Below the pieces are notes generated by a model. It did no database searches. It had not been told where the DNA came from and saw only the letters and a list, made by a program, of their open reading frames with translations. This document shows, in pieces, positions 4,086 through 11,685 of a DNA stretch of 13,295 nt. A program made the translations under genes and the position numbers. The stretch's first letter is position 1, and the number at the start of each line of letters is the position of its first letter. Source of the stretch: Funneliformis mosseae (Eukaryota > Glomeromycota > Glomeromycetes > Glomerales > Glomeraceae); contig CAJVPP010002866.1 in assembly GCA_910592005.1 (NCBI GenBank), positions 1 through 13,295 on the forward strand, given 5' to 3'.

Positions 4086-4110
4086 TTTCTGAGACGGCCC
4101 GTCCCAGAAA
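4086..4110. repeat. 25-bp palindromic repeat, copy 1 (non-coding)
   Basis: The 25 bases run from TTTCTGAGACGG through a central C to CCGTCCCAGAAA. They form a near-perfect palindrome: arms of 12 with one mismatched pair. It lies about 57 bases before the ATG of the coiled-coil gene, which carries two further copies inside its coding sequence. Confidence 0.75.
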
Positions 4111-4920: not shown

Positions 4921-4945
4921 TTTCTGAGACAGCCCGTCCCGGAAA
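4921..4945. repeat. 25-bp palindromic repeat, copy 2 (inside coding sequence)
   Basis: The copy starts TTTCTGAGACAG and ends CCCGTCCCGGAAA. It is read in frame as ISETARPGK. It differs from copy 1 at two positions (G to A in the left arm, A to G in the right arm), and it is preceded by ACTGAAA. Confidence 0.75.
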
Positions 4946-5436: not shown

Positions 5437-5461
5437 TTTCCGAGACAGCCCATCCCGAAAA
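5437..5461. repeat. 25-bp palindromic repeat, copy 3 (inside coding sequence)
   Basis: The copy starts TTTCCGAGACAG and ends CCCATCCCGAAAA. It is read in the same frame as copy 2, as ISETAHPEK, and is preceded by GTCTGAAA. It is the most diverged of the three copies. Confidence 0.7.
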
Positions 5462-5953: not shown

Positions 5954-5971
5954 TCATAGGAAGAAGTTCAC
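5954..5971 (+). repeat. Left terminal inverted repeat
   Basis: The 18 bases TCATAGGAAGAAGTTCAC match the right end perfectly in inverse orientation. The last bases, with the following GTGAT, form CACGTGAT. The left side abuts a 12-base perfect palindrome, TGTTTGCAAACA (5942-5953). Confidence 0.75.
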
Positions 5972-6152
5972 GTGATTAGACGATCGATTTCAATTGAATT
6001 TATACAGTTTAAAGTACTTTTTGAAAAATAAGGTTTCACATAATTAAAATTTTTTTTTTTACAAATAGCTTCATTAAAGCGTTAAAACGTTATTTTTAAA
6101 ATTAATCTCTAATAATCTCTAATTTAAGGAGTGTTTACTTAGTAATAAAGTT

Positions 6153-8639
6153 ATGGTTAAAACAAAAAAACTCGAAGGACCGTGCGTTATGAAAATTTGC
6201 AAAAAAACGTCAGTAACATGGCGAACTGTTACTGAAATGGTGATATCTCATGAAAAGGCCAGTGAAACGCTTCCTGAATATGTTAAAGAAAATGATGTTA
6301 TATGTTTGAATTGTTATAATGCAATTATTATTAACAAATCTTTTGAATTTAAACAATATGCATTAGAACGACATCATAATGAGCTAGAAACTTCTAACAA
6401 TAATATTTTGTCTTATTCGCAGGCTGTAGAGATAATTACAAAGATTCTCTATGAAAGGGAATGTAAATTATTACCACCAATTTGGGAATTTGAAGAATTT
6501 CGTGCGCTTATGGAATTAGGAGACAGGCGATTGAAACATTTTTTTGATGAACTATACATATCAACCAATCCGTTAACAAAGAACAAGAATACGATGAAAA
6601 AAGTATCAAAGCAATTAGTATTTTTATGTTATTATCTTTGTGGCATCAGAAATAAATTCATTAACAATGCAAAGAGAGATCTTGGGATGTATTTAGATTC
6701 AACTGGAACACCTAATTTAACAATTAATACTCTGGTAACGCTAGATTTATCGACGACATCTCGCACTATTTCTTATCATAAGGATGCTGTGTCTAAAAAA
6801 CATTCAATGACTGTGGAATCAAGGCTTTCAGAAAATGCGAATAATGCTATGATTTTAAATATTGATGATTATCATAGCATCCATACTAAAAGAATGCCTA
6901 ACACAGTTACAACATCAACTGCAGCACATCTCGCTACTGTTTTACTTAATCTGATAGAAAATGAGCTGGCAATACCAAAGCGAGATATTCATAATCCTGC
7001 ATTAGTTGATGCTTCATTAATCAAAACCGGTGTTGATAACTATTTGATATCACTATATTCATTCTCTCATAACCAGCGTTGGGAATTCCATTCTGTGGAT
7101 GACAAAACAAAACTCGAAGAACTAACGGTCTATAGTTATGATACTCGTTTAAAAGAAAAGAGAAATGCCCGATCAATAAAAGATGTGGTGCTTGCGGACC
7201 TTTTAGAAAATGATCTTCATTCAGTACAATCTTACATTAATGCTACTAATGCAGTTACTTCTATCCCTACAATTGATAGGTATATTAAAGCAGGCAATGT
7301 TATTCCGATCGTAGCTGATTGGCCTGGTCAAATTTACATGAGAACAGCTATATCCCGATATCTTGTTCATGGCAGTTCTTCTGGGATTACAGATAAGATT
7401 TTATCTTACCTTCCGATGATGGGTCTTTTGCACGTTTCCTTAAATAGCTGTGAGTTAGTCTTTCTCAAATACTAACTATTCTTTTCTGCAATATACAAAT
7501 ATATATTTGGCGAACGAAAACTGCTTGCTCAGAAACTGAAGCTATGGCGTATAAACTTATTATTAGAACTTTCACGTAGTGCATGGCAGGAAATCGCGCC
7601 AATAGTTGAAGTAAAATTTGGTCGCATATATAAAGATGCAGAATATATTACACTCAAGAATCTATTAGACAATATAATTCTGCTAGTTCTTGATATTTAT
7701 GCTTTATTTTTTCGTACTGGCGATTTTAACTCTTATATTGAATCATGTTTTCAGGTTTAGACTATTTTTCTTAAATTTAATCGTAAAAACTATACTAAAG
7801 CACCTTTAATGTTTTTATCAGATATTTTTTACTGGCAATCGAAAAATCACTCAATTTTGAAAACAATGAAAGCAGGATTACCAAAATTCTCTGATTCTCC
7901 CGTTGAAATCTTTTATAATCTTTTGCGATGTAATATAGAAAAATATCTTACGGCAAGTCAAATAATAAAGGAAGTACAGTACATTAATTATTTGTGATTA
8001 AATGATAATAGATTCAAAGAAAATTTTGTTCACACCTCAACTTGAGCAGTATACCAGTATTCTTCACGGAATATTTCAACATTAACACGAAAAACTGCAT
8101 GCTTTCTTTTAGATTATTTTTCAGATATTTATACTCGTATTAATCATGAAAAGATGCAATTTTTAATTCCATTACAGGTTACTATGAAAGGCTTATCAAA
8201 AAAGAGAAAAACTGATGCCAAAATCAGTTTTTCTATTCCAACAATGAAGATGGAGAATGCACAGCTTTGTCATTTATCTTTAGGATATAATTCTTCTAAA
8301 AAGCCTAACTTGTTTGGTTGTGATTCTTCTAATTGTCTTATTACTAATACTATATTTAATGAAGAAACAGGTCGGATACTATCATGTGGTCACGCATATC
8401 ATAATATATGCTTTAGCCTGAACAGATTCAAGTGCTTGCATTGCTTAGATTATATAAAGTCCGGTATTGATGAACATATACAATCACTTTTGGATCGTTT
8501 ACGACGACTTAATTTAATTAATGAAATTGAGAATGAAGAACCTGACTTTATTCCTGAAGAAGATCACAATGATAAAGAATCCGTTGATGGTATCTCAACT
8601 TCCTGGGACATTGCAATACTATGGTTTATTCAACAATGA
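6153..8639 (+). pseudogene. DDE-transposase-like protein with N-terminal Cys cluster and C-terminal RING-like finger
   Basis: One frame spans 828 codons with no frameshift, broken only by TAA 7473-7475, TAG 7758-7760, TGA 7995-7997 and TGA 8043-8045. Residues 11, 16, 51 and 54 are Cys (GPCVMKIC; ICLNCY), a likely zinc site. The core has ILNIDDYHSIH (Asp 238/239), IVADWPGQIYMRTAI (Asp 389) and SPVEIFYNLLR (Glu 585), spaced like the acidic triad of an RNase-H-fold DDE enzyme. The C terminus (723-764) shows C-x4-C, SCGHAYHNIC and CLHC, a RING-like finger, and then an acidic tail. The gene lies inside terminal inverted repeats, which supports a transposase role acting in the nucleus. I recall related large families in Glomeromycotina, but the DDE assignment is my inference. 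At 7758 the stop in FQV-stop-TIFLKF probably replaces Trp. Confidence 0.65.
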
Positions 8640-8847
8640 TTAAAATTATTATGTAAATATATAGTAATCATAAGTTATTTAAATATATATATTAAATATG
8701 ATATATATGAATCTAAAATACAATTTTAATAAATTTTTGAAATAATATAAATGGTATATAATAAATAAAAATTATGCTTTTATTTTATTTAAATTTACAT
8801 TTAATTTAATTGGTCAAATTGATATTTAAATTAATTGGTCAGTTATT
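8640..8847. other. Right subterminal AT-rich region of the transposon
   Basis: Very AT-rich, with TATATA runs and alternating T/A tracts. It lacks any frame. Two copies of TTAATTGGTCA, 25 bases apart (8806 and 8831), lie just inside the right terminal repeat and could be transposase-binding sites. Confidence 0.5.
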
Positions 8848-8865
8848 GTGAACTTCTTCCTATGA
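8848..8865 (-). repeat. Right terminal inverted repeat
   Basis: GTGAACTTCTTCCTATGA is the exact reverse complement of the left end at 5954-5971. Confidence 0.75.
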
Positions 8866-10439: not shown

Positions 10440-11685
10440 TTATTCAACGAGACCCAACTCTCAAAGATGATTTGGAATAACTATGTATGGATCCTCATAA
10501 TACCAAACATATCTTAAAACAATCGAATTCTTCTCGCAAAGTTCTTTTTTGAGCTGATCACGCATCAACTGCTTTTCAAACTCTTTCGGATCTTTGTGAA
10601 AGTATTTTACGTGTTGCTCATGTTGTTTACCTTGTACTTCTATAGCAAATTCATACTGTGGATAGTAGATGTCGAGTTCTAGTCCTCGAGGATGTTCAGG
10701 TATTTTCAAGAAATCTGATCGGCGGATGCTGGAAGATAGGCCAAGAATGTTAGTTATGATTTTGCGATATAGATTTTCATGTTTATTTAAGCAATATGGG
10801 CATCATGTCTTGGAGTGCTTTATACAATTAAAACTTGAAAACTATTTATGACCCTTATTATACATCCATTGCATTGGAACACAGAGATTTATATATTCTG
10901 TAGAAAGACATATACCTCTTCTACTGTGAGCGATTTCTTTAGCTTCCGAAAAATCACAGGGAAGATTACCAGCATATTGTGTGCACCATCTTCCCATATT
11001 TTTTATTCGATAAAGGGTTGTAGACCATTCATGACCTTTGGCACATTTCCAAAGCATCGGGGTATCTGTATTAACATATTCTGTAGAAAGGCACTTACCA
11101 CCTCGTTCTTGTGCAATATTATTTGCTATATCAATATTAATCGTCGTTGACGGTGCTGTGTATCATGTCTTTGGATTGAGGTACATTCTTATTCTGGTGT
11201 AATATGTTCTTGTACCGGGATAATCTTTTGGCTTGGTATAACACGTTTTTGTTCTGGTATAATATGTCCTTGTACTGAGAAATCTTTTAGCTTGGTATAA
11301 CACGTTTTCTGCCTGGTGTATTACAAGTTCGACACCAAGTTCCCTTAAGAATAACCTTTACTGAAGCCTTCCACTTATGGCCTTCTTTACACTGCCATTC
11401 AAGAGGATCCTGTCTATTAATATACTCAGTTGCAAGGCAAAGACCTCCTTTCTTTTTTGCAAACTTCCTCATATCTTCAATTGTTCGAGTATGACGATTT
11501 TCAACTGCGCATCACGGGTACCATGTTTTTTCATTCTTTATATTAGAAAGTCTTGCAGACCATAAATGACCCTTAGCACATTTCCAAAGCATTGGCATCT
11601 GACAATTGATATATCTTTCAGGGATGCATTTACCTCCTCTGCTACGTGCGATCTCTTTAGCAACATTCAAAGTTAATTTTGCCAT
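10440..11685 (-). pseudogene. Zinc-ribbon-repeat protein with Vsr-like PD-(D/E)XK nuclease domain, broken
   Basis: ATG at 11685 (MAKLTLNVAKEIARSRGG) opens four repeats of about 45 residues. Each has the plan GG-x-CL-x-EYIN, W-x-C-x-x-GH-x-W and W-C-x-x-C, as in probable zinc-ribbon domains of the DUF4379 (PF14311) kind. Repeats 1-2 lie at about 11652-11320 and repeats 3-4 at about 11141-10791, with a 20-residue tandem linker between them. The C-terminal domain reads GLELDIYYPQYEFAIEVQGK, then QHEQHV, RDQLKKELC and RYVWYYEDP, like very-short-patch-repair-type nucleases. Breaks are TGA 11514-11512, TAA 11289-11287, a one-base loss in the linker, TAA 11191-11189, TAG 10844-10842, TGA 10805-10803 and TGA 10463-10461. 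After the last, ELGLVE continues to TAA 10442-10440. Three zinc Cys positions have become Tyr. A DNA-binding nuclease, possibly of mobile origin, is inferred. Confidence 0.75.
11190..11304 (-). repeat. Tandem 60-base (20-residue) linker repeat, two units
   Basis: On the minus strand, CGTGTTATACCAAGC opens each of two units spaced 59 bases apart. Unit 1 reads RVIPS-stop-K and then, after a one-base loss, VQGHIIPEQK. Unit 2 reads RVIPSQKIIPVQEHITPE and then a stop. Each unit keeps the CAA that the other has lost to TAA. The single-base loss in unit 1 causes the frame change between zinc-ribbon repeats 2 and 3. Confidence 0.75.

Follow-up and report, generated by a model that had tools for sequence, protein, structure and literature searches.

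A probable decayed cut-and-paste transposon of Funneliformis mosseae and its family with a RING-like finger on the predicted transposase

What is the 2.9-kb segment with exactly inverted ends that lies in a contig of the fungus Funneliformis mosseae (CAJVPP010002866.1), and to which group of elements does its single gene belong? The segment spans positions 5954-8865 of the 13,295-nt stretch that was analysed, hereafter the window. An earlier note, made from the sequence alone, described it as a transposon with perfect 18-bp ends and an unusual transposase that it could not assign to a superfamily. The present analysis indicates that it is very probably a cut-and-paste DNA transposon, represented here by an inactivated copy and belonging to a family with inverted ends, 9-bp target-site duplications and an RNase H transposase that carries a RING-like finger. 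The family, in which this zinc finger is fused to the transposase and which matched no named group among those compared, may represent a new transposon lineage.

Ends, copies and target-site duplications

The terminal inverted repeats of the element are identical at 18 of 18 bases, and the 18-bp end (up to 3 mismatches) matched only twice in the window, at the element's own ends, against 0.01 matches expected from shuffles. In the genome (82 Mb, 4154 contigs), the exact 18-bp sequence occurs five times, two of these in the window, and conservation among related copies extends over about 33 bp. Allowing up to 3 mismatches, this 33-bp family pattern matched the genome 28 times and its reversed control not at all; 22 of the 28 point inward to a family gene match no more than 3.5 kb away. 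The ends are thus not unique in the genome; uniqueness would have refuted the reading of the earlier note. The perfection of the ends stands for the window copy but does not extend to the family, since in other copies the left and right ends mismatch each other at some positions. Family elements measure about 2.8-3.5 kb, start mostly with TCATAGG or TTATAGG and sometimes with ACATAG, and hold a single gene each, encoding about 800-930 residues in the fuller relatives. Terminal inverted repeats therefore flank the gene, as in DDE/D cut-and-paste transposons.

The family is present in many copies. The first 440 residues of the window frame match at least 108 places in the genome, a lower bound because 96 of 395 candidates were scored, and the C-terminal RING part gave 118 matches. 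For 61 of the latter, a core match of the same strand is found upstream at a distance of no more than 3.5 kb, whereas none is placed upstream of a core match or in opposite orientation to one; for the best 40 RING places, 34 are linked to a same-strand upstream core match.

As to target-site duplications, the 9 bases outside each end were compared in 14 two-ended copies. All nine agree in five copies (C1994, C299, C625, C3972 and C40), eight in three (C3161, C2016 and C69) and seven in one (C2222), while the best agreement among 182 mismatched flank pairings was 6/9. Since C3972 entered through a finder demanding exact duplication, exact duplications free of this selection number 4 of 13. The same finder also picked up C3511, a divergent copy whose protein is 38% identical to that of the window; it has ten identical bases, GGTATCTCCT, outside both ends; we read these as a 9-bp duplication beside element ends beginning with T, a 10-bp duplication being a possible alternative. 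The fixed-length duplication of DDE/D cut-and-paste elements is thus present at 9 bp in the family, with 8/9 or 9/9 agreement in eight of the 14 copies, but not in the window copy.

Several observations weigh against this reading. The flanks of the window copy, TTGCAAACA and CTATAATTG, agree at 3/9 and form no target-site duplication. Likewise, the flanks of C254, C197 and C2881 agree at 3/9 at most, without duplication, and those of C430 at 5/9. Five of 1320 shuffled loci passed the end-plus-duplication finder, and several of the pairs that it returned from real loci at its loosest setting look like chance. Furthermore, six of the 28 end-pattern matches have no family match within 3.5 kb, 57 of the 118 RING places have no upstream core match among those listed from the scored candidates, and the outermost ends of a relative from another assembly, L076 (see below), have only a short motif in common with those of the window family.

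The predicted transposase and its fingers

A single continuous frame occupies the space between the ends and contains the parts described in the earlier note, namely a Cys cluster near the N-terminus, a DDE-like core and, towards the C-terminus, a RING-like finger (Table 1). Four internal stops break the frame, and the window copy is therefore dead; since the frame runs without any shift, the gene was broken by point mutations. The first three Cys of the N-terminal cluster are conserved at 30/31, 27/30 and 29/31.

Table 1. Features of the element in the window
Feature	Position	Strand	Description
Left terminal inverted repeat	5954..5971	+	18 bp, exact; family 33-bp end pattern extends to 5986 with 3 mismatches
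Transposase pseudogene	6153..8639	+	one frame, 829 codons including stops; TAA 7473, TAG 7758, TGA 7995, TGA 8043
N-terminal zinc-finger-like Cys cluster	6183..6317	+	C-x4-C ... C-x2-C; C-x2-H in many distant members
Predicted first catalytic Asp motif, NIDDYHSIH	6858..6884	+	D240/D241 of modelled homologue P0001, strand beta1
Predicted second catalytic Asp motif, VADWPGQ	7311..7331	+	D391 of P0001, directly after beta4
GPLHxSLNSRE motif, [C/D]xxH-like	7422..7454	+	directly after beta5; window copy reads GLLHVSLNSCE
Predicted third acidic motif, DSPVEIF	7893..7913	+	E587 of P0001, helix alpha4
C-terminal RING-H2-like finger	8319..8444	+	C-x4-C ... C-x-H-x2-H-x2-C ... C-x2-C
Right terminal inverted repeat	8848..8865	-	18 bp, exact; 32 nt missing directly inside, relative to C1994

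The structure predicted for P0001 has an RNase H fold with an all-helical insertion, and its best structural matches are DDE transposases: the P-element transposase came first in Foldseek and Hermes first in VIA, where Hermes and the P element outscored ISCth4. Together with the alignment, this model shows D, D and E to be conserved within a predicted RNase H fold. Absence of that fold, combined with a gene family found mostly outside such ends, would have refuted the reading of the earlier note. In P0001 numbering, the first two presumed catalytic Asp are 150 residues apart and the H of the [C/D]xxH-like motif follows 38 residues past the second; the first residue of this motif is mostly G in the family, instead of C or D.

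The RING-H2-like pattern recurs in 99 of 154 fetched family proteins (fragments included), and the family profile matches RNF38 (E 4.5e-4). The finger has C3H2C3 zinc ligands and is real and widespread in the family. The first two Cys of a classical RING are separated by 2 residues. The spacing is 4 residues in 68 of the 99 fingers and 2 in 23, which weighs against a RING-H2 domain, as does a Pfam scan of ten homologues in which every RING model stayed below its curated cut-off. Ubiquitin ligases of the RING E3 type carry a CPxC proline and a basic linchpin after the last Cys; neither the proline nor a basic residue at this position occurs in any of the 99 fingers. The finger itself is thus retained from the earlier note, whereas the possible ubiquitin-ligase activity suggested there becomes less likely, although some active RINGs have neither hallmark.

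A mechanism can be proposed for these elements. Binding of the ends, at an outer AGGRGGAC-like and an inner GGCYGATYA-like motif, would fall to the zinc finger at the N-terminus and the helices next to it. With D240 or D241, D391 and E587, the RNase H core and its helical insertion would then excise the element and join its 3' ends to the two target strands at positions 9 bp apart, and repair by the host would create the duplication. The RING-H2-like finger would serve assembly, stability or contact with a host factor, rather than classical ubiquitin transfer.

Placement among transposon superfamilies

The lack of a superfamily assignment in the earlier note was borne out by Pfam scans of window pieces, ten homologues and 47 aligned members (25 of 52 families listed for the 47), which gave no transposase family among those listed. 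Among the weak matches are zf-BED in one protein, P0075 (E 0.066, below cut-off), and, again in a single member, ZSWIM3_N (E 0.0012); HEPN_RiboL-PSP, matched by two of the 47 (E 5.8e-4 at best), and several matches confined to one member each were taken for chance. A phmmer comparison of the first 440 residues with solved transposases found no match, and the family profile, read down to E 10, retrieved 44 sequences, almost all of them RING proteins and none a transposase. Comparisons of the N-terminal finger did not show a THAP identity, and its ZAD match is weak. In the abstracts searched, no transposon protein of such architecture was met. RAG1 also has a RING, but at its N-terminus rather than the C-terminus as in the family, and RAG1/Transib duplications are 5 bp. 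The family is probably a lineage new at the superfamily level, within the structural group hAT/P/MULE (Mutator-like elements); KDZ, Dada, Kolobok and Plavaka were covered by the Pfam scans alone.

The P element transposase (DmTNP/THAP9) is among the nearest known relations in structure, and the family could be a diverged branch of P or hAT elements, which we nevertheless consider distinctly unlikely. Besides the leading structural matches, both proteins have an N-terminal zinc finger and an RNase H core with a helical insertion, and the modelled order (D on beta1, D at beta4, the [C/D]xxH-like motif after beta5, the insertion, E on alpha4) is that of P, despite the G that mostly opens the motif. 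From the second D to the motif H there are 38 residues in the family; the corresponding distance in P, taken from D303 to the motif at D339, is 39. The N-terminal C-x4-C...C-x2-H spacing resembles that of THAP, and the faint zf-BED match of P0075 points the same way. On the other hand, 150 residues separate the first and second Asp in the family versus 73 in P, the family protein has a C-terminal RING-like finger and no detectable sequence match to P, and no hAT, P or THAP domain is among the Pfam families listed. P elements make 8-bp duplications, versus 9 bp here. A length of 8 bp is usual for hAT elements, with 5-7 bp variants known, according to PMC12730594; the 9-bp duplications of the family, and its different fingers, set it apart from Hermes and other hAT elements.

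Duplication length agrees better with a highly diverged MULE, whose transposase would lie beyond the reach of the MULE profile: MULE duplications are about 9 bp, as in the family. For IS256 and MuDR, a range of 4-10 bp is given in PMC10045372. However, the MULE model PF10551 found 119 places in the genome at E <= 0.001 (115 over cut-off), none overlapping the 85 merged family spans; hhalign against MULE pieces of the same genome gave no match, with a probability of about 0.1%, though this test, with four pieces over 80 residues from six loci, is weak. As Hermes and the P element also score higher than ISCth4, we regard a MULE origin as very unlikely. It is unlikely, too, that the family belongs to a fungal group that is already catalogued elsewhere though little described, such as the DUF6589 proteins of Pfam or an unpublished Repbase class. 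DUF6589 proteins have a similar motif order, and according to PMC11075540 many repeats in the libraries made for Rhizophagus stayed without a class; yet DUF6589 had no genome match over cut-off and one weak place (E 9.1e-4) on C2542, a contig without a listed family match, and the word DUF6589 was absent from the literature searched, a result that has no bearing on Repbase. The many copies and their annotation as 'hypothetical protein' would also suit a repeated host gene family beside which inverted repeats occur by accident, but the paired ends with 9-bp duplications, compared with controls, and the predicted DDE transposase fold make this hardly credible.

The family provides a case, open to experiment, in which a transposase other than RAG1 is joined to a RING finger. 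It also supplies a defined protein, ends and duplication length as search probes for unclassified transposon sequence. Many Rhizophagus transposons are reported as unclassified in PMC11075540 and PMC8647823; according to the former, unclassified transposon sequence made up on average 30% of the available Rhizophagus irregularis genomes until a curated library assigned some of it.

Relatives, decay and other features of the window

A protein search returned 79 relatives of the window protein, the fullest near ones with 804-841 residues, and a 47-row profile search returned 244 proteins. Named relatives among the 79 come from Gigaspora, Acaulospora, Entrophospora, Diversispora and Rhizophagus. 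In the best 120 of the 244, all named matches are from Glomeromycotina except one soil metagenome-assembled genome labelled Bacteroidetes, the rest being metagenomic or without a name; the Gigaspora and Entrophospora lineages were checked, and Acaulospora, Diversispora and Rhizophagus belong there as well. Such relatives would make the host of the window copy an arbuscular mycorrhizal fungus. The exception, contig L076 (VBAS01000141.1), has an open 920-residue family frame between inverted ends AACAGGGCGGACAT and is probably a fungal contaminant of that bin. Its inner motif GCCGATCA has seven matches (up to 1 mismatch) against 0.59 expected, six near the ends and one internal; a similar motif, GGCCGATCA, occurs in several window-family ends, and the left end in the window has AGACGATCG. 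The L076 and window-family proteins are only 40% identical, and no 9-bp duplication was found in the L076 flanks. No family relative was found in the viral contigs scanned, nor any match at E 0.001 in a viral structure library.

The window copy is 94.8% identical to C1994 (L062), with 144 transitions and 8 transversions (9 counting the last bases). Changed and unchanged C contexts number 33/82 for CpG, 58/293 for CpA, 20/252 for CpT and 15/97 for CpC, with 18 more changes in ambiguous context. This bias, enriched at CpG and CpA, is like repeat-induced point mutation (RIP) or methylcytosine deamination; for Gigaspora margarita, PMC8647823 reports that no signature of RIP was detected. Transitions and transversions are less skewed in more distant pairs (259:38 against C454 and 518:205 against C2016), and C299 and C625 differ by 552 transitions and 250 transversions. 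C1994 also has 235 nt extra near window position 7650. The pattern fits an old insertion decayed largely by cytosine deamination; the window copy would have decayed mainly via transitions and lost 32 nt near its right end, and it shows no duplication.

Outside the element, a 25-bp imperfect palindrome, TTTCTGRGACGGGCCGTCYCAGAAA, occurs at 4086-4110, 4921-4945 and about 5437-5461, the second and third copies lying in reading frames and encoding EISETA[RH]P. Genome-wide (up to 3 mismatches, both strands), it gave 16 matches at 10 places, several on C142, C2866 and C3710, and none in the control. A 120-residue open reading frame at 1590-1952 matches the N-terminal domain of Crinkler proteins (PF20147) below threshold, with E 0.0022 and 19.2 bits against a cut-off of 24.6. 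Finally, a 43-nt direct repeat is present in three diverged copies at 11183-11323, with start-to-start spacings of 39 and 59 nt.
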